Source: Kineococcus endophyticus (lineage in GTDB: Bacteria; Actinomycetota; Actinomycetes; Actinomycetales; Kineococcaceae). From it: 64,000 nt of DNA. Positions 1,981 to 60,913 of the stretch are shown here, piece by piece. The stretch spans positions 310,001 through 374,000 of the forward strand of contig NZ_JBFNQN010000002.1 of the NCBI RefSeq assembly GCF_040796495.1, read 5' to 3'. The translations under genes and the position numbers were made by a program. Within the stretch, counting starts at the first letter, position 1; each line of letters opens with the position of its first letter. The notes beneath the pieces were generated by a model. That model did not search any database and had not been told where the DNA came from. It worked only from the letters and a program-made list of their open reading frames with translations.

Positions 1981-3027
1981 TCACTCCAGGTAGTCGCGCA
2001 GCACGTTGGAGCGCGAGGGGTGACGCAGCTTGGACATCGTCTTGGACTCGATCTGCCGGATCCGCTCACGCGTGACCCCGTAGACCCTGCCGATCTCGTC
2101 GAGCGTCATCGGCCGATCCGTGACGAGGCCGAAGCGCATCGAGACGACGCCGGCCTCGCGCTCGGACAGCGTGTCCAGGACCGAGCGCACCTGCTCCTGC
2201 AAGAGCGTGAACGTGACGGCAGCCAGTGCGTCGACGGCGTGGGCGTCCTCGATGAGGTCACCCAACTCCGAGGTCCCGTCCTGCCCCAGCTGGGTGTGCA
2301 GCGAGATCGTGTCACGGCCGTGCTTCTGGAGGTCGGCGACCTTCTCCGGGGTCGTGTCGAGCCCTTCGGCGAGCTCGTCCACGGTGGCCTCGCGCCCGAG
2401 GTCCTGCATCACTTGCCGCCGCAAGCGTGCCAGCCGGTTGATGAGCTCCACCACGTGCACCGGAAGGCGGACAGTGCGCGCCTGGTCCGCCATGGCCCGC
2501 GTGATGGCCTGCCGGATCCACCACGTCGCGTACGTCGAGAACTTGAAACCCCGGGCGTGGTCGAACTTCTCGACGGCTCGTACGAGCCCCAGGTTCCCCT
2601 CCTGGATGAGGTCCAGGAAGAGCATCCCCCGACCCGTGTACCGCTTTGCGAGCGAGACCACCAGGCGCAGGTTGGCCTCGAGGAGGTGGTTCTTGGCCCG
2701 GCGGCCGTCCTCGCTGATCCATCGCAACTCGCGCGCGAGGACCGGGTCCAGCTCGTCACCCGCCAAGAGCTTCTGATCTGCGAACAGGCCGACTTCGATG
2801 CGTTGGGAGAGATCCACCTCCTGTTCGGCGGTGAGGAGGGCGACCCTGCCGATGAGCCGCAGGTAGTCCTTGACCGGGTCGCTGCTCGATCCGACCGTGT
2901 CCAGAGTCGCGATCGGACCGTCGTCCTCGTCCTCGAGGACGTCCACGGCGACCGGAGAGGCGTTCTGCTGCGGACCAGTCAGCCGAGCGGTTTCCCGCGG
3001 CTGCGTCAGGACGATCGGTGAGGACAC
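1981..3027 (-). CDS. RNA polymerase sigma factor, sigma-70 group 2 (SigB/HrdD-like)
   Basis: Directs core RNA polymerase to primary-type promoters. The protein (348 aa from GTG at 3027) has region 1.2 ([13 protein letters not shown]), regions 2.1-2.4 ([50 protein letters not shown]), region 3, and region 4.2 ending in [18 protein letters not shown]. It lacks the long N-terminal tail of the primary sigma factor, so a group 2 stress/stationary sigma is favoured. GTG at 3027 is chosen over upstream in-frame starts because GAAGGG stands 7 nt before it. STAS and phosphatase genes nearby suggest a stress-response setting, but group 2 factors are not usually partner-switch targets. Confidence 0.88.
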
Positions 3028-3202
3028 GGGAAAACCCTTCGTCACGGTGCCGACACCAGCACGCGACGGTCGTCCCGCGCACCGGTCTGATGTCCAAGCA
3101 CGCATCGACGGCTCTCGATGTACCCCTGAGCACGTCCATCACACCACGCTCAGCCCCGGAACACCATCGTCCCCCAGCGCCCTGGGCCGCCCCCTCTCGC
3201 GC

Positions 3203-3412
3203 TCAGCGCTCCGGACGGGGGAACCGACGCAGGTCGTCCACGGCGCGACGCTGGTCTCGCGCACGCGTTTCCTCGAGGTCCCACGCGTCGGTCGTCGACC
3301 TGTCGCTGAGGCCGGTCAGGCACGTCCGGCAGACAGCGCGACCGGCCCAGACGGTCACCGCGTCGAGTTCGGAACCGTCGGCCGCGAGGTGCTCCGCACA
3401 GAGGAGCCTCAC
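3203..3412 (-). CDS. small Cys-containing protein (possible zinc site), coupled to STAS gene
   Basis: Protein of 69 aa whose GTG start overlaps the stop of the STAS gene as GTGA, implying translational coupling. It contains C-x2-H near residues 5-8 and C-x2-C near 28-31, a layout that could bind zinc, and an acidic/basic helical C-terminus. No family is recognised. Because it is the only product coupled to the STAS protein it may work with it, but that is inference. Confidence 0.5.
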   Translation of the reverse strand: MRLLCAEHLAADGSELDAVTVWAGRAVCRTCLTGLSDRSTTDAWDLEETRARDQRRAVDDLRRFPRPER

Positions 3413-3846
3413 CGCGGTCCTGCCCCACGCAGCGCTCGCACCGTCGTCGCAGCGGGCCCGTCCGCCGCCTGCAGGGGGTTCGTCGCGGCCAACGAAACCC
3501 GGTCGGCCTCCAGAGCGGCACTGGCACTCCCGGCGTCGGGGTGGACGGGGAACCGGAAGACCTGTCCACTGCGTCGCAGGCTCTTCGCCGTCTCACCCTC
3601 CCGGTCGTCGACGACCACGATACGGTGGCGCAACGACTTGGCACGAGACCTCCCCGCGGTCAAGGCCGTCAGTGCCTCGTCCGCGAACGAGGAAACCCCC
3701 CTCACGTCCAGCAGCACGTCGTGTCCGCCACCGTCCTGCACCGCCGCCAACAACTCGGCGAGCAACTCCGGCACCTCCGCCGGGCCGACGACCCCCTCGA
3801 CGACGACGGTCCGTTCGTTCCCTCGCGTACTGCTGTGCAGCTCCAT
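3409..3846 (-). CDS. STAS-like domain protein
   Basis: Protein of 145 aa starting at ATG 3846. Residues about 10-105 read as a STAS-type alpha/beta domain (VVVEGVVGPAEV, HDVLLDVRGVSSFADEALTAL, HRIVVVDD), the fold of anti-sigma-factor antagonists. The usual phosphorylated Ser/Thr position after the second strand reads GVSSFADE, so a regulated serine is possible. A poorly conserved Ala-rich tail of about 40 aa follows. The gene is followed by the coupled 69-aa gene and then the sigma factor on the same strand. Confidence 0.6.
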   Translation of the reverse strand: MELHSSTRGNERTVVVEGVVGPAEVPELLAELLAAVQDGGGHDVLLDVRGVSSFADEALTALTAGRSRAKSLRHRIVVVDDREGETAKSLRRSGQVFRFPVHPDAGSASAALEADRVSLAATNPLQAADGPAATTVRALRGAGPR

Positions 3847-3973
3847 CGCGCGCTGTTCCCGTCCACTGGTGGTCGTTCTCCTCGCCGGCAGGTGTTCCCA
3901 CCGACGCACGTGCGGACCCCGGAACCGCCGGTCACGACGGCTGCCGAGGCGTGGGCGCCGGTCACACCCCGCG

Positions 3974-4270
3974 TCAGAGGTCCTCCGGGTGGGCGGGGCC
4001 GACGGACGCCCCTCCATCAGCCCCCTCCTCGGAGCTCGCGCCGGCGCGCTGGTGGGGACGTGCGGTGGCGGTGCACGTGAGGCGCGCCCACAGACCGTCC
4101 GACCCGGCGAGGACGACCACGTCACCGACGTCGCCGGGCGACAGCCCCGCCTCGACGGCTCTGGCAGTGGCCCGGCGACGTAGATCAGCGCTGACCCGAG
4201 CCTCGTGCTCAGCCCAACTCCGGCCCCGCAGGACGCGGGAGACGACGATGGTGACGGTGGGGTCGGTCAC
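3974..4270 (-). CDS. hypothetical 98-aa protein
   Basis: Start GTG at 4270 is supported by AGGAG 6 nt upstream. The product begins with a beta-rich stretch (DPTVTIVVSRVLRG), continues through an Arg-rich helix, then GLSPGDVGDVVVLAG and LWARLTCTATA, and ends in an acidic Gly/Ser tail. No family is recognised. It lies divergent to the large PAS-GAF-PP2C gene and upstream of the STAS gene. Confidence 0.5.
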   Translation of the reverse strand: MTDPTVTIVVSRVLRGRSWAEHEARVSADLRRRATARAVEAGLSPGDVGDVVVLAGSDGLWARLTCTATARPHQRAGASSEEGADGGASVGPAHPEDL

Positions 4271-4475
4271 GGGTGCTCCTGGCGACGTCCTGACGACGCG
4301 CGCACGCCTGCTGGTCACGATGCCTTCCCGGCCACGCTCTGACCCACCGGGTGGTGCCCACGGCTCCGTGTCCCACCAGTGTGCGGCACCGGCGCCCGCG
4401 CGGCCCGTCGAGCCGCCGGGACGTCGGCCTTTCCCGGCGAAGCCGCCGACGCCGGTCGGTCGGTCGCCGGGTGGC

Positions 4476-4481
4476 TACCCT
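4476..4481 (+). promoter_or_regulatory. -10 box of a probable leaderless transcript
   Basis: TACCCT followed by exactly 6 nt and the GTG at 4488, so transcription would begin at or next to the start codon. No ribosome-binding site is visible. Confidence 0.6.
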
Positions 4482-4487
4482 GGGCTG

Positions 4488-6749
4488 GTGCGCCAGTGGC
4501 CCGGGAAGGGCGAGGACGCCGACAGCAGGCCGGTGGACGGGGCCGCGAGGGTGCCGGGTCGACTGGACCTGCCGGTCGTCGCCCACGAGGGCCCGGTGGC
4601 AGTGCTCGTCGTCGACGTCGTCGCCGAGCAGGTGCTGTCCGGCAACGACGCGGCCCGCCGGCTGGCCCCGGGTCTGCACCTTCCAGCGGCCGTGGAGGAC
4701 TGGTCCCGCGCAGCGGGTCTGGAGGCCGCCCCGGGCGGGCTCGACGGCCGGGACGGCACCTCGTTGCTGCGCGTGGCCGCGGGTGGTCCTGAGCCCGGGC
4801 AGCAGACCACGGCCCTCCTGCACCGTGTCGCTGCCCACGCAGGTGAGGCCCTGTGGGCGACCGGTGCGCCGCTGCACGGCGCACCGCCGCCACTGCAGAC
4901 CCGGTCGCTGCTCGTCCTGGTGCCTGTCGACCTCCCGGACGCCTACGGGACCCGGGCAGGGGCCGGCCGCGACCACGGCTCGGTCCTGTCCAGCGGCCTG
5001 GCCCTGACCCTCTCCGACCCCACCGTCGAGGGGGACCCCCTGGTGTGGGTCTCGTCCACCTTCACCCAGCTGACCGGCTGCACCTCCTCCGACGCCGTCG
5101 GCCGCGACCTGCTGTTCTGGACCGGGCCCGACACGGACCCGCACGCCCTGGCCCGACTGCGTGGCGACCTCGTCCGGACGTCCCGTGGGGCAGTACCCGC
5201 CGAGGAACCCGCCGCCGACGCGATCCGCGAGACGTTGCTGGCCCACCGTCGCGACGGGTCGGCGTTCTACAACCACCTCACCGTCCTCCCCGTCCTGGAC
5301 GAGGACGGCGGCACCGCTCACCGGATCAGCCTGCAGAGCGACGTCACCGCTCACGTCCTCGCCCGGCACGAGCGCGCCCGGGAACGGCGAGACACCGACG
5401 AGCGCCTGGACGCAGCCCGCCAGGCGCAGACCGCCGCCGAGGACGCCGACCGCTCAGGGCGTCTGCTGCTGACCTTGTCCGAGGCCCTGACGGCGACGAC
5501 CACCGTGGCGGAGGTCGCCGCCACGATCGCCGACGTCGTGACCGTCGAACTGGGCGCGACCGGCAGCGGTCTGCTGCTGGCCGATGCCGCCCGCACTCGG
5601 CTGGACCTCGTGAGGTCCGCCGCCGCCCCTACCCCCGCCGACGGAGTGTGGTCGCGCATCGGCTGGGGCGACGACGTCCCTCCGGCCCAGGCGGTGCGCC
5701 AGCGAGCGGCGGTGTTCTCCGGCGACGGCACCGCGTCGCGGGCAGCGGATCCCGTGACCGCCGCGCACGTCGGGCCCGCAACGGTGGGAGCCAGCGCGAG
5801 CCTGGCCCTCATCAGCGCCGGCGAGGTCATCGGGGCGGTCTTCCTGTCCTGGGCCGAGCCCCGCCCCTTCTCCAGTCGACATCGAGCGGTGCTGCAAGCG
5901 CTGGGCCGGTACACCGCGCAGGCCGTCCAGCGCGCGGTGCTGGCCGCGGAACGCAGGAGCGCCGCCGAGGTGCTGCAACGGTCGCTCCTGACCCGGCTGC
6001 CCGAGCCGGACCACCTCGAACTCCGGTCCCGCTACGTACCTGCCGCGGCCGGCGAGCACGTGGGCGGGGACTGGTACGACGCCATCGTCCAGCGGGACGG
6101 GTCCACAGTGCTGGTCATCGGCGACGTCACCGGTCACGACATGGCCGCGGCCGCCCACATGGGCCAGATGCGCGGACTGCTCAGGGCGTTCGCCTACGAC
6201 CGCGACGAACCCCCCGCCCAGGTGGTGACCCGTCTGGACCGGGCTCTGGCCGGCTTGGGCGTCGACGGCCTGGCCACGCTCGTCCTGGGCCGGATCGAGC
6301 AGGTCCCCGCCGACACCGCGCAGGCCGGTGCTGCCGGTGGACGCGGGCTGCGTCGACTGCGGTGGACCAACGCCGGGCACCCGCCGCCCCTGCTGCTGCT
6401 GGCTGACGGGTCCACGCAGGTGCTCACCAGCGAAGCGGAGATGCTCATCGGACTCCTGCCGGACGCCGAGCGCAGCGACCACCTCGTGGCGCTGCCGCCG
6501 GGGTCGACGGTGCTGCTGTACACCGACGGCCTCATCGAGCACCGCGGCCGCAGCCTCGAGGACGGCATCGACGACCTGCGTCGGGTCTTGAGCTCGTGCC
6601 GTGACCTCTCGGTGGAGGAACTGCTGGACCGCGTCGTGGTCGATCTGGTCGGGGACTCACCGGAGGACGACTGCGCGATCCTGGCCGTGCGGGCCCATCC
6701 GGAGGACCGTCCCCGCCCGGCCGAGGCCGCAGGGCGTCGGGTGGTCTGA
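4488..6749 (+). CDS. PAS-GAF-PP2C (SpoIIE/RsbU-type) protein serine phosphatase
   Basis: Signal-responsive phosphatase of 753 aa, the kind that dephosphorylates STAS antagonists in partner-switching pathways. A first PAS-like region lies near residues 20-140, a clearer PAS domain near 165-295 (VWVSSTFTQLTGCTSSDAVGRDLLFW, a LOV-like layout but without NCRFLQ), a coiled linker at 295-325, GAF at about 325-480, and the SpoIIE phosphatase at about 490-735. Metal-binding acidic residues are present in GGDWYDA, IGDVTGHDMAAA, YTDGLIEH and EDDCAILAV. The open frame runs much further upstream, but the TACCCT box before GTG 4488 and loss of domain content favour this start. The STAS genes at 3.4 and 21.7 kb are candidate substrates. 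Confidence 0.88.
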   Translation: MRQWPGKGEDADSRPVDGAARVPGRLDLPVVAHEGPVAVLVVDVVAEQVLSGNDAARRLAPGLHLPAAVEDWSRAAGLEAAPGGLDGRDGTSLLRVAAGGPEPGQQTTALLHRVAAHAGEALWATGAPLHGAPPPLQTRSLLVLVPVDLPDAYGTRAGAGRDHGSVLSSGLALTLSDPTVEGDPLVWVSSTFTQLTGCTSSDAVGRDLLFWTGPDTDPHALARLRGDLVRTSRGAVPAEEPAADAIRETLLAHRRDGSAFYNHLTVLPVLDEDGGTAHRISLQSDVTAHVLARHERARERRDTDERLDAARQAQTAAEDADRSGRLLLTLSEALTATTTVAEVAATIADVVTVELGATGSGLLLADAARTRLDLVRSAAAPTPADGVWSRIGWGDDVPPAQAVRQRAAVFSGDGTASRAADPVTAAHVGPATVGASASLALISAGEVIGAVFLSWAEPRPFSSRHRAVLQALGRYTAQAVQRAVLAAERRSAAEVLQRSLLTRLPEPDHLELRSRYVPAAAGEHVGGDWYDAIVQRDGSTVLVIGDVTGHDMAAAAHMGQMRGLLRAFAYDRDEPPAQVVTRLDRALAGLGVDGLATLVLGRIEQVPADTAQAGAAGGRGLRRLRWTNAGHPPPLLLLADGSTQVLTSEAEMLIGLLPDAERSDHLVALPPGSTVLLYTDGLIEHRGRSLEDGIDDLRRVLSSCRDLSVEELLDRVVVDLVGDSPEDDCAILAVRAHPEDRPRPAEAAGRRVV

Positions 6750-21129: not shown

Positions 21130-21723
21130 TCAGCCGCTCCACGGCCCGGCGAGCTCGCCGACCGCCACCGGGACGTCGACGACGTTGCCGGGCGGCGGCA
21201 GCGGACAGGCCCACGCCGGGTCGTAGGCGCAGCTCGGCGGGTAGGCGAAGTTGAGGTCGACGACGAGGCCGCGCTCGGTGCTGCCGAGGTCGGCGCCCTT
21301 GACCGTGTCGAGCAGGTAGCGACCGCCCCCGTACCCGGGTCCGGGGTCCTTCAGCGGCAGGAACAACCCGCCGCCGTACTGGTCGAGCCACCACACGTCG
21401 AGCGTCCCGACCCCGGGCAGCGTCACCGTGCCGACCCGTTCGAAGGCGACGGTGCCGTCGGTGCCGGTGACGGCCTCGCGGCGCAGGGGGTCGGCCGGTT
21501 CGACGGGCACCTCGAACCGCAGGGCGGGGTCGTAGGGCGCGACGGGCAGCCCGGTGAACGCGGCGCGGTCGGCGGGCAGCAGCGGGCCGGCCGGGTGGTG
21601 GGCGAAGAGCTCGTCGCGACCGGCGCGCCAGCGGGTGTGCCCCTCCTGCGGGGGGAGCGCGCGCACGGCGGCGTAGAGGTCGGTGACGCGGCGGCGCCAG
21701 TCGAGGACGTCGAGGCGGGTCAC
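21130..21723 (-). CDS. DUF1684 family protein
   Basis: Protein of 197 aa. The family hallmark YGGGRYLLDTVKGADLG (about 135-151) and NFAYPPSCAYDPAWACPLPPPGN (about 158-180) are clear. DUF1684 proteins are cytosolic, of unknown activity. Its start overlaps the STAS gene stop. Confidence 0.85.
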   Translation of the reverse strand: MTRLDVLDWRRRVTDLYAAVRALPPQEGHTRWRAGRDELFAHHPAGPLLPADRAAFTGLPVAPYDPALRFEVPVEPADPLRREAVTGTDGTVAFERVGTVTLPGVGTLDVWWLDQYGGGLFLPLKDPGPGYGGGRYLLDTVKGADLGSTERGLVVDLNFAYPPSCAYDPAWACPLPPPGNVVDVPVAVGELAGPWSG

Positions 21724-22085
21724 GCGGTGGCGCCGGGGAGGGTCTGCAGCTCGATCATCTCGTCCAGTCGAGCACGGTGGACGAGGTGGCGCACGTGCTC
21801 GGGTGCTCCCTGGACCGTGATGCGACGTTCGCCGCTGCGCGAGGCGAGGCGGGCGAGGAAGCCGAGCCCCGTGGAGTCCATGAACGTCACGGCCCCCGCC
21901 TCGACCACGACGGGCCTACCGGCCGCGAGGGCTTCGGTGACGCAGCGTTCCAGCTCCGGGGCCAGGGAGGCGTCGATCTCGCCGGCCAGCGTGACGAGCA
22001 CGGGAGCCGCAGCCCCGGACGCGCCCACCCCGGACCGCACGCCCACCGACCCGGGAGGGCCGGAGAAGGTGTTGCCCGAGGTCAC
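21720..22085 (-). CDS. STAS-domain anti-sigma factor antagonist
   Basis: Protein of 121 aa with a disordered first 28 residues and a STAS domain (VLVTLAGEIDASLAPELERCV, VTFMDSTGLGFLARLAS). Ser in DSTG (about residue 70) is the expected phosphorylation site used by anti-sigma kinases, so SpoIIE-type phosphatases in this window could act on it. GTG 22085 follows TAGCAT by 7 nt. No kinase gene is adjacent. Confidence 0.85.
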   Translation of the reverse strand: MTSGNTFSGPPGSVGVRSGVGASGAAAPVLVTLAGEIDASLAPELERCVTEALAAGRPVVVEAGAVTFMDSTGLGFLARLASRSGERRITVQGAPEHVRHLVHRARLDEMIELQTLPGATA

Positions 22086-50196: not shown

Positions 50197-51270
50197 TCAG
50201 GGGATGAGGGAGACCTTCACGGAGTTCGCCGAGTCCGCCACCAGGTCCAGACCCTTCTGGAACTCCGACAACGGCAACTGGTGCGAGCAGATCTCGTCCA
50301 ACGGCAGACGACCGGACTCGATCAACCTCAACGCCGCCGGCCACGTGTCCTGCCCCAGGTGCGCACCCAGCACGTTCAACTCCTTGTCGTCGGAGATGAT
50401 CGACCAGTCCACCGTCACCGGATCCTTGAACACCGAGTACTCCACGAACGTCCCCAGCTTCCGCAACAGGTTCAACCCCTGCGCCACCGCCGACGGATGC
50501 CCCGTCCCCTCGATGTACACGTCCGCGCCGTAACCACCCGTGAGCTTCTTGACCTCCTCCACCACGTCGACCTCGGTGATGTTCAACGTGACGTCAGCGC
50601 CGCACTTCCTGGCCAGCTCCAACTTCTGCGGCAACGCGTCCAACGCGATGATCCGCTGCGGGAACTTCGCCGCCGCCCCCGCGATCATCCCCAACCCGAT
50701 CGGCCCGCACCCGGCGACCACCACCGTGTCGTCGAACCGGATGCCCGCCCGCTCCACCGCGTGCAACGCACACGACAACGGCTCGGCGTACGCCACCTGC
50801 CACGGCGGGATCGACTCCGGCGCCTTGTGGACCAACGCCTCCTTCGGCAGCACCAGGTACTCCGCCATCGCCCCCGGTGTCCGCCGCTTGAAACCGAACA
50901 TGTCGTGCGGCTGGCACATGTGGTAGTCACCACGGTTGCAGTACCGGCACTCCCAGCACGGCACGATCTGCTCGGCCACGATGCGGTCACCGACCCGCAC
51001 ACCCCACCGCGCCGCCGCCTCGTCGTCGATCTCGGCGATGCGCCCGGTGAACTCGTGACCGGGAACGGTGTCCGTCTCAGCCCACGCCGGCCGGTTCTCG
51101 TCCCCCCAGAACTTCGCCGCCCCGTGGTAGCACTTCAGGTCGCTCGCGCAGATCCCCACCGCCTCGACCTTCAACAACGCCTCACCGGGACCGGCGACGG
51201 GGACGGGGACCTCTTCCAAGCGGTAGTCGTGCGGTCCGTGCACGACCACCGCCTTCATCGTCTCTGCCAT
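50197..51270 (-). CDS. eltD: erythritol/L-threitol-type zinc alcohol dehydrogenase, copy 1
   Basis: Medium-chain dehydrogenase of 357 aa. Catalytic zinc ligands Cys41 (ICASDLKCYHG), His72 and Glu73 (GHEF); structural zinc Cys105, 108, 111, 119; Rossmann motif AGCGPIGLGMIAG (about 183). Overall it matches EltD, which oxidises erythritol to D-erythrulose and L-threitol to L-erythrulose. GAAGGAG is 6 nt before ATG. Its last 260 residues are identical to copy 2 (54631). Expressed from a promoter overlapped by a SorC-type operator. Confidence 0.85.
   Translation of the reverse strand: MAETMKAVVVHGPHDYRLEEVPVPVAGPGEALLKVEAVGICASDLKCYHGAAKFWGDENRPAWAETDTVPGHEFTGRIAEIDDEAAARWGVRVGDRIVAEQIVPCWECRYCNRGDYHMCQPHDMFGFKRRTPGAMAEYLVLPKEALVHKAPESIPPWQVAYAEPLSCALHAVERAGIRFDDTVVVAGCGPIGLGMIAGAAAKFPQRIIALDALPQKLELARKCGADVTLNITEVDVVEEVKKLTGGYGADVYIEGTGHPSAVAQGLNLLRKLGTFVEYSVFKDPVTVDWSIISDDKELNVLGAHLGQDTWPAALRLIESGRLPLDEICSHQLPLSEFQKGLDLVADSANSVKVSLIP
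50200..50973. repeat. direct repeat, copy 1 of near-identical 774-bp tract (copy 2 at 54646-55419)
   Basis: The 3' three-quarters of the two dehydrogenase genes match at a constant offset of 4446 bp without indels; I counted five silent differences. Upstream of 50973 the copies diverge abruptly, then match again around 51087-51176. The pattern suggests recent duplication with later conversion of part of the gene. Confidence 0.85.
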
Positions 51271-51412
51271 CAACTGCTCCTTCGCAGCGCGCTCCGGGGA
51301 CGGGCCGGGGAGCGGGGGGTGTGAGGTGGGCTGTGGGACAACTCGTCGGTGGGTCGTCGTGGTGCGAGCCCCGCGGGGACCGGGTGCGCCGGGTTCCTCC
51401 GTGGTCTTCCGA

Positions 51413-51454
51413 ACGCTAGGACCTGTACGGCACACTTGTCCAGCACATGCGTGC
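51413..51454 (-). promoter_or_regulatory. eltD copy 1 promoter with SorC-type operator
   Basis: On the minus strand TGGACA (-35, 51442-51437), 18-bp spacer, TAGCGT (-10, 51418-51413). The -35 is embedded in an imperfect dyad (51430-51454) whose plus strand reads GCACACTTGTCCAGCACATG then CGTGC. The same GCACA-N2-TGTCCAGCAC core overlaps the -35 of the second copy. Confidence 0.65.
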
Positions 51455-51523
51455 AACGATCTGGTGACCGGTCCGGCGACGGAGCCGACCGGCCCGCGAG
51501 CGCACGGACGGGGAGGGGTGCCG

Positions 51524-52480
51524 GTGGTCCACACCGAACGGTTCCCGCTGGCACTGGCCCACACGGCGGCGACGCTCTACTACCTCCAGGACGCGACCCA
51601 GGCCGAGATCGCCCAGCGCATCGGGACGTCGCGGGCGACGGTCAGCCGGCTGCTGCGGGAGGCCCGCGACCGCGGGCTCGTGCGCATCGAGGTGGTGCCG
51701 CTGCCCGAGCAGGACCCCGGCGACCTGGCCGAGAAGGTCCGCACGGCCCTGGGCCTGCACCACGTCTCGCTGTGCCCACCCACTCCGGAGGCGCACGTCG
51801 CCGAGGCCGTCTCCCCCACCGTCGCCGCGGTGCTGGCCGGAGTGGGACTCTCGCCCGGGGACGTCCTCCTGGTCTCCTCGGGACGGACCCTGCACGAGAT
51901 CGCCGAGCGGGAACTACCCGCGCTGCCCGGTGTCCTCGTCGTGCCGATGGTCGGCGGGCAGGACGAACCCGAACCCTGGTACCAGACCAACGAGATCACC
52001 CGCCGCGTCGCGGTGGCCGTGGGGGGCACTCCCCGGTTCCTGCACGCCCCCGCCTTCCCCGGACGCCGGTTGCGCCGCAGCCTGGTCGAGGACCCGGAGT
52101 TCCGGCGGTTCGCGCAGCTGTGGGCCGGTGCGCGCTGCGCCCTCATGGGCGTCGGCGCCCCGACGTTGCGCCGGGAGTCCCTGCCCGGCTTCGTGCCGAC
52201 CGGCGAGGCCCCGCTCGCCGGCGCCGTCGGCGACGTGGCGTCCCGGTTCTACGACGCGTCGGGCGCCGAGATCACCTACGACGGAGCGGACCGGCTGATC
52301 GCGATCCCCCTCGACGTCCTCTCGGGCGTCCCCGTCCGCATCGCCGTCGCGTACGGCGCCCTCAAGGTGCCGAGCATCGTCGCCGGCGCGCGCGGCGGGC
52401 ACTTCACCCACCTCGTCACCGACCCCGCCACGGCGTCGGCGCTCCTCACGTCCGCACCGCACCCCCAGGAGATCCCGTGA
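51524..52480 (+). CDS. SorC/DeoR-type sugar-binding transcriptional regulator, copy 1
   Basis: Regulator of 318 aa. Helix-turn-helix at about 18-50 (YLQDATQAEIAQRIGTSRATVSRLLREARDRGLVRIEV), then the SorC C-terminal ligand domain (LLVSSGRTLHEIA, PMVGGQDEPEPWYQTNEITRRVA). Divergent from eltD copy 1; overlaps the SDR gene by GTGA. GTG 51524 is chosen because GGGAGG lies 7 nt upstream; GTG 51518 is too close to it. Confidence 0.87.
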   Translation: MVHTERFPLALAHTAATLYYLQDATQAEIAQRIGTSRATVSRLLREARDRGLVRIEVVPLPEQDPGDLAEKVRTALGLHHVSLCPPTPEAHVAEAVSPTVAAVLAGVGLSPGDVLLVSSGRTLHEIAERELPALPGVLVVPMVGGQDEPEPWYQTNEITRRVAVAVGGTPRFLHAPAFPGRRLRRSLVEDPEFRRFAQLWAGARCALMGVGAPTLRRESLPGFVPTGEAPLAGAVGDVASRFYDASGAEITYDGADRLIAIPLDVLSGVPVRIAVAYGALKVPSIVAGARGGHFTHLVTDPATASALLTSAPHPQEIP

Positions 52481-53241
52481 CATCCCCCTTCGACCTCACC
52501 GGCCGCCGTGTCCTGGTCACCGGCGCCACGCAGGGCCTCGGCAGCGACGTGGCCCGCACGCTGGCCGCGGCCGGCTGCGACCTGGTCCTCAGCGCGCGGA
52601 GCCGCGATGCGCTCGAGACCCTCGCGCAGGCGCTGGTCACCGAGCACGGGACCCGCGTCGAGGTGGTCCCGGCGGACCTCGCGGACGCCGACGACACCGG
52701 GGCCCTCGCGGCCGCGGCCCTGGCGACGTTCGGTGGCCTCGACGTCCTCGTCAACAACGCGGGGATCTCGGTGCCCCAGCGCGTCGTCGACGTGGACGCG
52801 GCCACGTGGGACCGCGTCCTGGCCGTGAACCTGCGGGCACCGGCGCTGCTCGGTTCCCGGATCGGCCGGGCCATGGCGGAGACGGGACGCGGGAGCATCG
52901 TCAACGTCTCGTCGGTCGCGGGATCCCTGGCCCTGGCCGAGCACTTCTCCTACTCGGCGAGCAAGGCGGGGCTGCTCATGGCGACGAAGGTGCTGGCCCT
53001 CGAGCTCGGCCCCTCCGGCGTCCGCGCGAACTCCGTCAGCCCCACGGTCGTCATGACCGAGATGGGGCAGCGGGTGTGGGGCGAGGAGGCGAAGGCGGCA
53101 CCGATGATCGCCCGGATCCCGCTGGGGCACTTCGCCCAGCCCTCCGACGTCAGCAACGCCGTCGTCTACCTGGCCTCCGACGCCTCGGCCATGGTCAACG
53201 GGGTGGACCTCACCGTCGACGGCGGGTTCTCGGCCGCCTGA
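52477..53241 (+). CDS. short-chain dehydrogenase (candidate D-threitol/polyol dehydrogenase)
   Basis: Classical SDR of 254 aa: TGATQGLGSDVARTLA (about 13-28), NNAGIS (about 90), Ser in NVSSVAG (about 140) and catalytic YSASK (Tyr154, Lys158), ending DLTVDGGFSAA. Resembles DthD/xylulose-reductase-like enzymes that oxidise polyols to ketoses. Translationally coupled to the SorC regulator. Confidence 0.85.
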   Translation: MTSPFDLTGRRVLVTGATQGLGSDVARTLAAAGCDLVLSARSRDALETLAQALVTEHGTRVEVVPADLADADDTGALAAAALATFGGLDVLVNNAGISVPQRVVDVDAATWDRVLAVNLRAPALLGSRIGRAMAETGRGSIVNVSSVAGSLALAEHFSYSASKAGLLMATKVLALELGPSGVRANSVSPTVVMTEMGQRVWGEEAKAAPMIARIPLGHFAQPSDVSNAVVYLASDASAMVNGVDLTVDGGFSAA

Positions 53242-53258
53242 CCCACGCGGCGCCGAAC

Positions 53259-53299
53259 GCACGAGGCCCCCGCGACCGGTGGTCGCGGGGGCCTCGTGC
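53259..53299. terminator. strong bidirectional hairpin terminator
   Basis: Perfect 19-bp inverted repeat (arm GCACGAGGCCCCCGCGACC) with a 3-nt loop, between the convergent SDR (stop 53241) and MFS (stop 53309) genes. Confidence 0.9.
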
Positions 53300-53308
53300 G
53301 GTGCCGCG

Positions 53309-54634
53309 TCAGGAGACGGTCTCGAGGCGGCCGTGCGCGCGGTGCTTCTGCGGGACGTGCAGGAACGAGACGAGGACGAAGGCCACGGCGTAGAGCGCGA
53401 CGAAGGTCCACACAACGGCGACGTTGCTGCCCCCGACCCCCAGGACGATCGAGACGACGGCCGAGCCGAGGAACGTCGCCCCACCGGCCGCGGTCGTGTA
53501 CATCGCCATCGCGGCGCCCTGGTGGTCCGGAGCCAGCGCGGGCATGATCGCGCCCATCGGGACGAAGCCGGCGAGCAGCATCCCGAAGAGGCAGCCGGCG
53601 AGCACGGACAGCACGTAGCCCCAGTCGCTGCCGGCGGGGACGAGCTGCGGGACGTACCACCACAGCAGCAGTCCGCAGGCCGACCCGACGATGCCGAACC
53701 ACTTGACGGTCCGCTGCCAGCCGATCCGGTCACCGATCGCCCCGAACATCACGTTGACGAGGATGTTCGTCGCGTAGACGCAGACGGTCATGACGAGCCA
53801 GCGCGACTGGCCCCACCCGCGCTCGGTCGCGATGACGGCGGGCAGGACGATGAACATCCCGAACTCCGGAGCGGTGTTGATGAGGCGCACGAGGAACCCC
53901 GCCGCGATCTTCGGCCGCGTGAACGTGAGGCGCAGACCGGACGTCAGCACCTGCCCCGCGCTCTCGCCCGCCGGGGCGATGCGGCGCCGGCCCCGTTCGT
54001 CGCGGACGCCGAACCAGGCGATGAGGAACCCGACGACGACGAGCGCGATGGAGGCGACCATGGCGCCCGTCTCCCCCTGCGTCCCTCCGCCGAACACCGG
54101 GATGGCGCCGACGGCGAAGAGGGAGCCCAGGGTGGGCAGACCGCCGGTGAAGGCGACGTAGAACCAGCCGACCGCCGCCCCGTTGCGCTCGGGCGGGGTC
54201 GTGATGTTGACCCACACGAGGAACGCGAAGGCGAAGAGCGGGAAGCCGAAGCCGCGCAGTGCGTAGGCGGCCGCGGCGAGCGGGAAGCTGCCGGCCTGCA
54301 GCGCGAGGAGGAACAGCACCTCGAAGACGACCCAGACCCCGAACCCGACGGCCATGACGCGGCGCGGACCGAAGAGGTCCGAGAGGGCCCCGGACAGGTA
54401 GCTGCCGACGAGGACGCAGAGGCTGTAGTACGTGATGATGACCGCGACGGCCTTCTCGGGCCGCCCCAGGACCTCGACGAGGTGCGGGGTCAGGAAGTTC
54501 GACTCGACCCCGTTGCCCGTCATGAAGACGAGGACCCCGAGGAAACCCCAGCGCAGCACGGGCGGGATGCCCAGTCGCTGCAGCCGCGACTCCTCCAGAC
54601 CGCCCGACGCCGTGGTGGCGGAGGTGCTGCTCAC
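53309..54634 (-). CDS. MFS polyol permease, RbtT/DalT/CsbX family
   Basis: Twelve-helix carrier of 441 aa. The block MTGNGVESNFLTPHLVEVLG (about 29-48) is diagnostic of ribitol/D-arabinitol/CsbX permeases. GTG 54634 overlaps the dehydrogenase copy 2 stop (GTGA), so this is a second polyol uptake route in the island besides the ABC transporter. Confidence 0.86.
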   Translation of the reverse strand: MSSTSATTASGGLEESRLQRLGIPPVLRWGFLGVLVFMTGNGVESNFLTPHLVEVLGRPEKAVAVIITYYSLCVLVGSYLSGALSDLFGPRRVMAVGFGVWVVFEVLFLLALQAGSFPLAAAAYALRGFGFPLFAFAFLVWVNITTPPERNGAAVGWFYVAFTGGLPTLGSLFAVGAIPVFGGGTQGETGAMVASIALVVVGFLIAWFGVRDERGRRRIAPAGESAGQVLTSGLRLTFTRPKIAAGFLVRLINTAPEFGMFIVLPAVIATERGWGQSRWLVMTVCVYATNILVNVMFGAIGDRIGWQRTVKWFGIVGSACGLLLWWYVPQLVPAGSDWGYVLSVLAGCLFGMLLAGFVPMGAIMPALAPDHQGAAMAMYTTAAGGATFLGSAVVSIVLGVGGSNVAVVWTFVALYAVAFVLVSFLHVPQKHRAHGRLETVS

Positions 54635-55716
54635 GCCGCCGTCCCGGGGATGAGGGAGACCTTCACGGAGTTCGCCGAGTCCGCCACCAGGTCCAGACCC
54701 TTCTGGAACTCCGACAACGGCAACTGGTGCGAGCAGATCTCGTCCAACGGCAGACGACCCGACTCGATCAACCTCAACGCCGCCGGCCACGTGTCCTGCC
54801 CCAGGTGCGCACCCAGCACGTTCAACTCCTTGTCGTCGGAGATGATCGACCAGTCCACCGTCACCGGATCCTTGAACACCGAGTACTCCACGAACGTCCC
54901 CAGCTTCCGCAACAGGTTCAACCCCTGCGCCACCGCCGACGGATGCCCCGTCCCCTCGATGTACACGTCCGCGCCGTAACCACCCGTGAGCTTCTTGACC
55001 TCCTCCACCACGTCGACCTCGGTGATGTTCAACGTGACGTCAGCGCCGCACTTCCTGGCCAGCTCCAACTTCTGCGGCAACGCGTCCAACGCGATGATCC
55101 GCTGCGGGAACTTCGCCGCCGCCCCCGCGATCATCCCCAACCCGATCGGCCCGCACCCGGCGACCACCACCGTGTCGTCGAACCGGATGCCCGCCCGCTC
55201 CACCGCGTGCAACGCACACGACAACGGCTCGGCGTACGCCACCTGCCACGGCGGAATCGACTCCGGCGCCTTGTGGACCAACGCCTCCTTCGGCAGCACC
55301 AGGTACTCCGCCATCGCCCCCGGCGTCCGCCGCTTGAAACCGAACATGTCGTGCGGCTGACACATGTGGTAATCACCACGGTTGCAGTACCGGCACTCCC
55401 AGCACGGCACGATCTGCTCCGCGACCACCCGGTCACCGACCTGCACACCCCAGCGCCGCGAGGCCTCCTCGTCGATCTCGACGATCCGCCCCGTGAACTC
55501 GTGGCCCGGGACCGTGTCCGTCTCCGCCCACGCCGGCCGGTTCTCGTCCCCCCAGAACTTCGCCGCCCCGTGGTAGCACTTCAGGTCGCTCGCGCAGATC
55601 CCCACCGCCTCGACCTTCAACAGCGCCTCACCGGGGCCGGCCTCCGGCACCGGGATCTGCTCGAGCCGGTAGTCCTCTGGGCCGTGCACCACGACCGCCT
55701 GCATCGTGCCCGTCAT
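54631..55716 (-). CDS. eltD: erythritol/L-threitol-type zinc alcohol dehydrogenase, copy 2
   Basis: Paralogue of 361 aa, with the same zinc ligands (Cys41, His72, Glu73; four structural Cys). It differs from copy 1 in scattered residues of the first 98 and in a four-residue C-terminal extension (GTAA) that places its stop over the MFS start; the rest is identical. GAGGGAG lies 6 nt before ATG. Copy 2 is coupled to an MFS carrier whereas copy 1 leads an ABC transporter. Confidence 0.85.
   Translation of the reverse strand: MTGTMQAVVVHGPEDYRLEQIPVPEAGPGEALLKVEAVGICASDLKCYHGAAKFWGDENRPAWAETDTVPGHEFTGRIVEIDEEASRRWGVQVGDRVVAEQIVPCWECRYCNRGDYHMCQPHDMFGFKRRTPGAMAEYLVLPKEALVHKAPESIPPWQVAYAEPLSCALHAVERAGIRFDDTVVVAGCGPIGLGMIAGAAAKFPQRIIALDALPQKLELARKCGADVTLNITEVDVVEEVKKLTGGYGADVYIEGTGHPSAVAQGLNLLRKLGTFVEYSVFKDPVTVDWSIISDDKELNVLGAHLGQDTWPAALRLIESGRLPLDEICSHQLPLSEFQKGLDLVADSANSVKVSLIPGTAA
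54646..55419. repeat. direct repeat, copy 2 of near-identical tract (copy 1 at 50200-50973)
   Basis: See copy 1. The match begins just after the divergent last codons of the gene, at GGGGATGAGGGAGACC, and ends at GATCTGCTC. Confidence 0.85.
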
Positions 55717-55774
55717 GTTCTGCTCCCTCGCAGGTCCGCCCGACGTCGTCGGGCACCATCCTCGGTCGGGCCCG

Positions 55775-55815
55775 ACCGTACGGCGACTCTGCACAGATGT
55801 CCAGCACGTCTGTTC
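55775..55815 (-). promoter_or_regulatory. eltD copy 2 promoter with SorC-type operator
   Basis: On the minus strand TGGACA (-35, 55803-55798), 17-bp spacer, TACGGT (-10, 55780-55775). The operator (55791-55815) holds the shared GCACA-N2-TGTCCAGCAC core and an ACAGA/TCTGT dyad. Confidence 0.65.
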
Positions 55816-56224
55816 ACAGGCGACGGGACAGCGCTGCCCACTCCCGCGGCCGCAGGTGCGAGGGGTTGCTGCCCGCGGGCATCCGCAGGACCTCGGCGGA
55901 TCCGACAGCAGGGTCGAGGAGCAGCTCGGCGCGCGGGACGACGTCCGCGAGCGCCGTCAGCTCGACGTCGACGGCGGGTCCACCGCCCTCCTCCCGCACG
56001 TGCGAGGCGATGCGCCCGACGGCGGCCACCCCCGGGTCGACCCGGCCGCTGACCCACAGGACGCAGGGCTGTCCCACGCGCAGGAGCCCGAGCCGGTAGC
56101 TGCGTCGCAGGCACCGCGACAGCACGACGGCACCTGCGGCGGGTCCGTCCGGGAGCTCCGCCGGACGGCCGGAGGACTTGAGCAACCAGCACGCCACGTC
56201 CGCTTCCGTCAGCACGCCGGTCAT
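55814..56224 (-). CDS. EVE/PUA-like domain protein, hypothetical
   Basis: Protein of 136 aa. The middle part YRLGLLRVGQPCVLWVSGRVDPGVAAVGRIASHV (about 43-77) resembles the EVE domain core, a PUA-related fold that binds modified bases; the usual Trp is present in VLWVSG. It lies between eltD copy 2 and SorC copy 2, where the first eltD/sorC pair has no gene. Confidence 0.5.
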   Translation of the reverse strand: MTGVLTEADVACWLLKSSGRPAELPDGPAAGAVVLSRCLRRSYRLGLLRVGQPCVLWVSGRVDPGVAAVGRIASHVREEGGGPAVDVELTALADVVPRAELLLDPAVGSAEVLRMPAGSNPSHLRPREWAALSRRL

Positions 56225-56289
56225 CCTCACCCGAGCACCCCGCCGGGGCGCGGGGACGAAGTACGGTGATCCGAACCAGGAGGTGCCAG

Positions 56290-57228
56290 GTGGCCAAAGG
56301 AGACGGCCGGTTCCCGCTCGCCCTCGCCCACACGGCGGCGACGTTGTACTACCTGCAGGACGCGACCCAGGCCGAGATCGCGGAACGGCTCGGCACCTCC
56401 CGCGCCACGGTGAGCCGCCTGCTGCAGGAGGCCCGGGACCGCGGTCTCGTCCGCATCGAGGTGCTGCCCCTGCCCGAGGAGGATCCCGGCGACCTCGCGG
56501 AGCGCCTGCGCGACGCCCTCGGCCTGACGGCCGTCCACCTGACGGCACCCACGAGCAGCGCCCACCTGGCCGAGGCCGTCTCCCCCGTCCTGTCGCGCGT
56601 CCTGGCCGGTGTGGGACTGGCCGAGGGGGACGTCCTCCTGGTCTCCTCCGGGCGCACCGTGTACGACATCGCGCAGCGCGAACTGCCGACCTTGCCGCGC
56701 GTCGTCGTCGCTCCCATGGTGGGCGGGCAGGACGAACCCGAGCCCTGGTACCAGACGAACGAGATCGCCCGGCGCGTCGCCGTGGGCGTCGGCGGAACGC
56801 CCCGGTTCCTGTACGCCCCCGCGTTCCCGGGACGTGCCCTGCGGCGCAGCCTCGTCGCCGACGCGGAGTTCAAGCGGTTCGCGAACCTGTGGGAGACTGG
56901 GCGCTGCGCCGTCATGGGCGTCGGAGCGCCTCCGCTGCAACGGTCGTCGATCCCCGGGTTCGTCCCGACGGAACAGGCGCCCCTGCGGGACTCCGTGGGT
57001 GACGTCGCCTCGCGCTTCTACGACGCGGACGGCCGGGAGATCGACTACGACGGTTCCGACCGCCTCATCGCGATCCCCCTCGAGGTGCTGCGCCGGGTGC
57101 CGGACCGCATCGCCGTCGCCTACGGGACGCTGAAGGTGCCGAGCGTCCTGGCCGGGGCGAGGGGCGGGTTCTTCAACCACCTCGTCACCGACCCGGCGAC
57201 GGCGACCGCTCTGCTCGCCGCCGCCTGA
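56290..57228 (+). CDS. SorC/DeoR-type sugar-binding transcriptional regulator, copy 2
   Basis: Regulator of 312 aa, clearly paralogous to the one at 51524 (same ALAHTAATLYYLQDATQAEIA start and VGGQDEPEPWYQTNEIARRVA ligand-domain block) but well diverged, unlike the dehydrogenases. GTG 56290 has AGGAGG 6 nt upstream. Convergent with the kinase gene. Probably senses a phosphorylated tetrose intermediate, as SorC proteins usually do. Confidence 0.87.
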   Translation: MAKGDGRFPLALAHTAATLYYLQDATQAEIAERLGTSRATVSRLLQEARDRGLVRIEVLPLPEEDPGDLAERLRDALGLTAVHLTAPTSSAHLAEAVSPVLSRVLAGVGLAEGDVLLVSSGRTVYDIAQRELPTLPRVVVAPMVGGQDEPEPWYQTNEIARRVAVGVGGTPRFLYAPAFPGRALRRSLVADAEFKRFANLWETGRCAVMGVGAPPLQRSSIPGFVPTEQAPLRDSVGDVASRFYDADGREIDYDGSDRLIAIPLEVLRRVPDRIAVAYGTLKVPSVLAGARGGFFNHLVTDPATATALLAAA

Positions 57229-59513: not shown

Positions 59514-59690
59514 ATGTCCTTCGTTGACAAGGCCAAGAACGTCGTCCAGCAGACCGTCGGCAAGGCCGAGGAGGCCGTCGGCAAGCGCACGGACGACCAG
59601 GAACAGATCGCCCAGGGTCAGAAGGACCAGGCGATGGGTGCGGCGCGCCAGGAGACCGAGAAGGCCAAGGACGCGCTGCACGACAAGTGA
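59514..59690 (+). CDS. CsbD-family stress protein
   Basis: Small hydrophilic helical protein of 58 aa (MSFVDKAKNVVQQTVGKAEE start, with the KxxVGKxxE and QEQIAQGQ layout of CsbD). Usually part of general-stress regulons. AAGGAG 8 nt before ATG; TAGGGT at 59466-59471 is a candidate -10. GTGA overlap with the phosphatase frame. Confidence 0.88.
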   Translation: MSFVDKAKNVVQQTVGKAEEAVGKRTDDQEQIAQGQKDQAMGAARQETEKAKDALHDK

Positions 59691-60913
59691 GGCGGTCGCA
59701 GGCCCCCGCCCGTGAGGGGCGGGGGCCGACCGTGGCCGCCGATCCCGGCGGCCTGGACGCACTGCTCGTGTCCGCCCTCCGTGCTGCGGAGCAAGCTGTC
59801 TGCGTCGCGGACGTGAGCCTTCCCGACGAACCCGTGGTGTGGGTCAACGAGGCGTTCACCCGGACGACGGGGTACGACGCGTCGCAGACCGTCGGACGGA
59901 ACTGCCGTTTCCTGCAGGACGGCCTGTCCGACCGCGGGTACGACGTCCGCACTCCTGCAGCGCAGATCCGCTCGCTCATCGAACGCCGCGCCGGCGGGAC
60001 GGTCCTCATCCCGAACCGGCGCCGGGACGGTTCGGTGTTCTGCAACGAACTGGCCTTGAGCCCGCTGCCGGACGCGACCGGCGCCGTCCGCTACTACGTC
60101 GCCGTGCAGCAGGACGTCACCGCTCGCGTGCAGGCGCAGGCCGCGCGCGACGCGGTCCAGGCCGAGGCTGCCGAACTCGCGGACCACCTGCAGCAGCAGC
60201 TCGTGCCGCAGGAACTCCCCGACGTCCCCGGGTGGGAGGTCGCCGTGCGCTACCGACCCGCCTCGCGCGCCGACGGCAGCCGCGGCGAGGTGAGCGGCGA
60301 CTTCTACGACCTGCGCGTCCTCACGTCCGGTGAGGCCGTCGCCGTCATCGGCGACGTGTCCGGGCGCGGCCCCGCCGCAGCCGCCACGACGGCCGCCCTG
60401 CGGTGGGCGGTCCGCGGTGTCCTCGGGGTCGTCTCCGGGCCGGCGGACGCGCTGCGCCACGTGGGCGGCGCGGTGCACGACACCCTCGGCGACCGGTTCG
60501 CCACCGTCGCCGCCGTGCGCCTGCCCCCCGAGCCCGGTCGCGCCGTGGACCTGTGCCTGGCCGGCCACCCTCGTCCCGTCCTCGTGCCCGTGGCCGGGCC
60601 GAGCCGGATGGTGGGTGCTCCCGGGATGCTCCTGGGGCCCTTCCCCGACCCCGACCTGCGCGAGACACCCGTCGACCTCGCCGCGGGCGAGCACCTCGTC
60701 CTCTACACCGACGGCGTCACCGAGGCGGCCTCGCCGACGCACGAGCTCTTCGGCGACGACCGCCTCCTCGCCGCCCTGGACGGGCTGCGGGACAAGGCCT
60801 CCGCGAGCCCCGACGACGTCGCCGACGCCGTCCTGGCGGCGGTCGGCGACCACGTGGGCGACGGGCCCACCGACGACCTGACCCTCATGGTCCTGCGCCG
60901 TTCCCCGCGCTGA
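59687..60913 (+). CDS. LOV-PP2C: blue-light photoreceptor serine phosphatase
   Basis: Protein of 408 aa. Residues about 23-148 form a LOV domain with the photoactive Cys73 in GRNCRFLQ and FMN contacts Asn110, Asn120 and Gln141 (PNRRRDGSVFCNEL, VAVQQDVT). A coiled linker (about 148-172) leads to a SpoIIE/PP2C phosphatase (SGDFYDL, IGDVSGRGPAAA, YTDGVTEA, DDLTLMVL). Light would form a flavin-Cys adduct and alter phosphatase output on a STAS antagonist. The GTG at 59687 overlaps the csbD stop; GTG 59732, after the hairpin at 59701, is an alternative start that keeps the whole LOV domain. Confidence 0.88.
   Translation: MRRSQAPAREGRGPTVAADPGGLDALLVSALRAAEQAVCVADVSLPDEPVVWVNEAFTRTTGYDASQTVGRNCRFLQDGLSDRGYDVRTPAAQIRSLIERRAGGTVLIPNRRRDGSVFCNELALSPLPDATGAVRYYVAVQQDVTARVQAQAARDAVQAEAAELADHLQQQLVPQELPDVPGWEVAVRYRPASRADGSRGEVSGDFYDLRVLTSGEAVAVIGDVSGRGPAAAATTAALRWAVRGVLGVVSGPADALRHVGGAVHDTLGDRFATVAAVRLPPEPGRAVDLCLAGHPRPVLVPVAGPSRMVGAPGMLLGPFPDPDLRETPVDLAAGEHLVLYTDGVTEAASPTHELFGDDRLLAALDGLRDKASASPDDVADAVLAAVGDHVGDGPTDDLTLMVLRRSPR
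59701..59727 (+). terminator. hairpin after csbD, inside or just before the LOV-PP2C frame
   Basis: Perfect 11-bp stem (GGCCCCCGCCC) with a GTGAG loop, 10 nt after the csbD stop. It would partly terminate transcription, giving more csbD than phosphatase mRNA, and argues for the downstream phosphatase start at 59732. Confidence 0.65.

Follow-up and report, generated by a model that had tools for sequence, protein, structure and literature searches.

A stretch of 64,000 nucleotides from Kineococcus endophyticus, here called the window, contains a conserved gene at positions 59732 to 60913 whose product is probably a functional blue-light phosphatase, of a type already known in bacteria. From the sequence features of the gene, its orthologs and its paralogs, we consider it likely that the protein is a stand-alone, blue-light-regulated serine phosphatase that feeds a STAS/sigma factor switch, and that the csbD gene beside it is incidental. 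The gene and its parts are as follows:

59732 to 60913, forward strand: LOV-PP2C (SpoIIE/RsbU-type) phosphatase of 393 amino acids from the favored GTG start at 59732 (Pfam, 9 orthologs)
59795 to 60121, forward strand: LOV core, residues 22 to 130 (alignment with AsLOV2 and YtvA, contact table, LOV matches in the PDB)
60122 to 60208, forward strand: linker helix (alignment, AlphaFold model)
60212 to 60910, forward strand: PPM/PP2C phosphatase domain (Pfam, Asp motifs, fold match to 3f79)

The open reading frame matched the Pfam families SpoIIE (E-value 7.5e-38, 130.8 bits against a cut-off of 25) and PAS_9 (1.6e-14), and the top matches of its N-terminal half in a sequence search of solved structures were LOV photoreceptors, all of which bears out the initial annotation of the gene as a LOV-PP2C phosphatase. 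It was aligned with 8 other genes that were 52% to 82% identical, giving a set of 9 orthologs that spans 2 families. The dN/dS ratio in comparison with the closest species (G006) was about 0.20 for the whole gene (0.13/0.66), with values of 0.18 for the LOV domain, 0.10 for the linker and 0.25 for the PP2C domain, so that all 3 parts are under purifying selection.

Matches at an E-value threshold of 1e-40 were obtained in 10 of 59 genomes, including its own, and 6 of these 10 belong to the genus. One match (L019) covered mainly the phosphatase half and was excluded from the 9 orthologs. Furthermore, a profile search at 1e-80 against 393 other genomes, drawn from the whole class, yielded no match. 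The LOV-SpoIIE proteins in general are already known, and it is the compact form that is confined to a small group: in the genomes searched, close orthologs occurred only within this genus and in a single further family of the same order. No paper on a LOV-PP2C protein in this genus was found in the literature searched.

The photoactive cysteine of the LOV domain is Cys58 (nucleotides 59903 to 59905), which is located in the sequence GRNCRFLQ, in agreement with the GXNCRFLQ motif, and was invariant in all 9 orthologs. The initial annotation had identified the same residue but numbered it Cys73, which presupposes a start at position 59687 rather than at 59732. The flavin pocket was compared by means of the contact positions in AsLOV2 and reference sequences of LOV proteins. 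The polar contacts N449, R451, Q454, R467, N482, N492 and Q513 are all present in the LOV-PP2C protein, and in one ortholog Q454 is replaced by His. The earlier claim that all FMN contacts are intact thus holds for the polar contacts and the cysteine, but not for 7 other pocket positions, which have been altered relative to AsLOV2 (V416 to Cys, T418 to Ala, N425 to Glu, V463 to Ala, F494 to Leu, F509 to Tyr and G511 to Ala), nor for the region between the E' and F' helices, where an insertion of variable length was observed in 7 of the 9 orthologs, this gene included.

It was also noted that the pocket contains a second cysteine, Cys24 in the numbering from 59732 (nucleotides 59801 to 59803), which occupies the V416 position of AsLOV2 and was likewise invariant in the 9 orthologs. 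In LOV domains this position tunes the photocycle. It is possible, though unlikely, that Cys24 together with the E'/F' insertion in most members defines a LOV subtype with altered photochemistry that controls the phosphatase directly.

The linker is 28 residues long in each of the 9 orthologs, with no gap between DVT and LVP, and was predicted to form a single continuous helix (residues 130 to 157) in an AlphaFold model of the monomer, which was built from an alignment of 3 sequences and is of middling confidence (mean pLDDT 67.9). The fold of the model matched LOV structures and the phosphatase domain of RssB (3f79). The Asp motifs of the phosphatase domain, SGD (D190), GDVSG (D208), TDG (D327) and DDLTL (D381/D382), were invariant in all 9 orthologs, confirming that the metal site is complete, as previously proposed. 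For RsbU, a switch that involves a coiled-coil linker and a dimer has been demonstrated, and the same mechanism has been suggested for further sensor types, PAS and GAF among them (PMC12143880). The constant length of the linker and its prediction as a single helix would fit a linker-and-dimer mechanism of the RsbU type.

Immediately upstream of the phosphatase gene are the following 2 features:

59514 to 59690, forward strand: CsbD-like protein of 58 amino acids (Pfam CsbD, 40.1 bits, above the cut-off of 40)
59701 to 59727, forward strand: hairpin of 11 perfect pairs with a loop of 5 nucleotides, 11 nucleotides past the csbD stop codon

The phosphatase had been described as forming one unit with the CsbD stress protein, with the hairpin between the genes tuning their ratio. 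If the 2 genes constituted a true light and stress operon, the hairpin would attenuate read-through and the GTGA sequence, in which the csbD stop codon overlaps a possible start codon by 4 bases, would couple their translation. In support of this, the overlap and a strong hairpin are present both in this genome (G000, 5.04 Mb) and in G006, which also share rpiB upstream and 2 further genes downstream, one of which has a weak glycosyltransferase match. The fold of positions 59680 to 59760 has a z-score of -4.4, and searches of the region identified neither T-tract terminators nor sigma-70 promoters, with no promoter-like site between csbD and the LOV-PP2C gene. However, csbD is located directly upstream of the phosphatase gene in only 2 of the 9 orthologs, those of the sister species G000 and G006; the surroundings of the other 7 differ, and the csbD orthologs of G001, G002 and G005 are located away from the LOV-PP2C gene. 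A conserved csbD-LOV-PP2C operon was therefore rejected. Nor was a conserved sigma-B-type promoter found upstream of csbD in 5 orthologs, where a TAnnnT-like -10 element was more evident. Taken together, we consider the operon unlikely, although co-transcription of the 2 genes is possible given their close spacing and the GTGA overlap in the 2 species.

The hairpin itself is probably a terminator of csbD that lacks a T tract, because similar structures follow csbD genes that are not linked to a LOV-PP2C gene and because the intergenic hairpins in the window are all located at the 3' ends of genes. Uninterrupted hairpins of unrelated sequence were observed within about 15 nucleotides of the csbD stop codon in G001 and G002 and likewise after the stop codon of a csbD paralog in G000, while the hairpin in G005 was weaker. 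The window contains 9 perfect hairpins (at least 10 pairs, loops of 3 to 8 nucleotides), 5 of which are intergenic and are located 5 to 18 nucleotides after the 3' end of a gene, as defined by our own codon-usage predictions. A search of Rfam with the hairpin gave no match. These observations favor termination over the tuning of a ratio, and CsbD is best described as an accidental or recent neighbor with its own terminator hairpin. The pairing of the 2 genes is in itself of little importance.

The hairpin also bears on the start codon of the phosphatase gene. Its left arm is the same in G000 and G006, but owing to a difference of a single nucleotide between the loops the 2 species would translate the right arm in different frames. 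This argues that the pairing of the arms, rather than an encoded peptide, has been kept, and it also speaks for a csbD terminator and against an operon. For this reason the GTG at 59732, which aligns with a GTG in G006, is probably the start of the gene. Translation from the GTG at 59687 in the overlap is possible; the reading frame is open from 59687 to 60913 and would encode 408 amino acids.

Elsewhere in the window, a perfect hairpin of 20 bp with a loop of 3 nucleotides is located between convergent genes at 53258 to 53300 and is likely a bidirectional terminator. Moreover, 2 similar genes for zinc dehydrogenases (50197 to 51270 and 54631 to 55716) and 2 similar genes for SorC-like sugar-binding regulators (51524 to 52480 and 56290 to 57228) were identified, and the segment from 50197 to 57228 appears to be a duplicated sugar-use module.

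The genome has an extensive partner-switching repertoire, with 23 matches to SpoIIE-type phosphatases, 12 to STAS proteins and 22 to HATPase_c_2 above the cut-off, although some of the latter may be histidine kinases, and those that adjoin phosphatase genes may not be anti-sigma factors. A single sigma factor scored above the cut-off for SigB/F/G, and at a distance of about 300 nucleotides the same strand contains a HATPase_c_2 match that is weak and partial. Positions 67149 to 67999 of contig C3 (L051) hold a STAS gene (67149 to 67517) beside an RsbW-like gene. Neither an RsbW nor a STAS gene adjoins the LOV-PP2C gene studied here.

We identified 5 LOV proteins in the genome, with domain names assigned by eye: 3 LOV-phosphatases, a short protein of about 166 amino acids that consists of a LOV domain on its own (L030, contig C6, 9073 to 9573), and a long EAL-like, LOV and GGDEF-like protein with the motif NCRVLQ instead of NCRFLQ (L007, contig C4, 285346). 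The locus L029 on contig C10 (3657 to 8650) contains 2 PP2C genes, one of them with a LOV domain, and immediately after these a HATPase_c_2 gene, and is a more obvious cluster for light-dependent partner switching than the locus at 59732 to 60913.

Two STAS genes in the window had been put forward as candidate substrates:

21720 to 22085, reverse strand: STAS anti-anti-sigma-like protein (Pfam STAS_2, 62.1 bits) with an intact D-S-T-G phospho-acceptor motif
3409 to 4125, reverse strand: second STAS protein (31.4 bits) with F-A-D-E-A at the place of the phospho-acceptor

Both genes are present, and the protein encoded at 21720 to 22085 is a possible substrate judging by its motif, but it is not specially favored because it represents only one of about a dozen STAS matches in the genome. 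The protein encoded at 3409 to 4125 was ruled out as a substrate since it has no phospho-acceptor serine. Its gene is located in a region (1981 to 6749) that also encodes a principal-type sigma factor (1981 to 2946, reverse strand) and a PAS-GAF-PP2C protein (within 3018 to 6749, forward strand). It overlaps or adjoins the PAS-GAF-PP2C gene, the coding start of which is uncertain, and that phosphatase is its more natural partner.

Two further explanations were weighed against that of a light-regulated phosphatase in a STAS/sigma factor switch. The altered flavin pocket, with its invariant cysteine at the V416 position, could suggest that the LOV domain serves as a sensor of redox or flavin state, or as a dimerization module, with the phosphatase being controlled by something other than light. 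We find this very unlikely, since a non-photochemical role needs neither the photoactive cysteine nor its motif, and both have been retained in 9 orthologs from 2 families. It might also be argued that the substrate is a phosphoprotein other than a sigma-regulating STAS protein, in line with the lack of a cognate gene pair beside the LOV-PP2C gene and the many phosphatases in the genome. Yet the ortholog in G002 is divergently oriented to a HATPase_c_2 gene and both of the larger LOV-PP2C paralogs in this genome adjoin HATPase_c_2 genes, and the domain relatives RsbU, RsbP and SpoIIE are phosphatases that act on STAS proteins, which makes a substrate of another kind doubtful. The earlier suggestion of a light-controlled phosphatase in partner switching is supported, insofar as it can be judged from the residues, the conservation of the orthologs and the neighbors of the relatives.

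In the mechanism that we infer for the light-regulated phosphatase, including flavin binding, the response to light, dimerization, the sign of the light effect and the substrate, blue light would induce a flavin-cysteine adduct at Cys58 of the LOV domain. The resulting change would be transmitted through the helical linker of fixed length to dimeric PPM domains, which would be repositioned and thereby altered in activity. Such a repositioning model has been described for RsbU, which consists of an N-terminal sensor, a helical linker and a PPM phosphatase that acts on a STAS protein (PMC12143880), and the same has been proposed for RsbP. The phosphatase would then remove the phosphate from a STAS anti-anti-sigma protein encoded elsewhere in the genome, and this would lead to the release of a sigma factor held by an anti-sigma kinase of the RsbW type. 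If this is correct, the gene would add a direct light input to the very large partner-switching set of its genome. The linker-and-dimer model for PPM phosphatases has so far been tested mainly in RsbU, and a compact LOV-phosphatase of 393 residues with a fixed linker would offer a simple system for studying the control of PPM activity by light.

Bacterial LOV-SpoIIE/PP2C photoreceptors are a listed class (PMC4844311), and the protein described here resembles its members in that a LOV domain is joined to a SpoIIE-type phosphatase, here in a compact form without extra PAS or GAF domains. LOV and PP2C domains are also found in a single chain in 2 Cellulomonas proteins of the LOV-GAF-PP2C-like type (L009, L010), as well as in the 2 larger paralogs in this genome. 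All of these, as judged by eye, contain an extra GAF-like region between the 2 domains, and the larger paralogs an additional N-terminal PAS-like part. YtvA/RsbL, a LOV-STAS protein, shares the LOV input, and YtvA feeds blue light into the stress sigma pathway, but the output is the STAS domain of a stressosome rather than a phosphatase; the match of the LOV-PP2C protein to the NCBIfam YtvA family reached 99.6 bits, which is below the cut-off of 250. RsbP and RsbU of Bacillus subtilis share the arrangement of an N-terminal sensor, a helical linker and a PPM phosphatase, whereas the protein described here has a LOV sensor with a photoactive cysteine, no identified RsbQ or RsbT partner, and a gene located outside a sigB operon.
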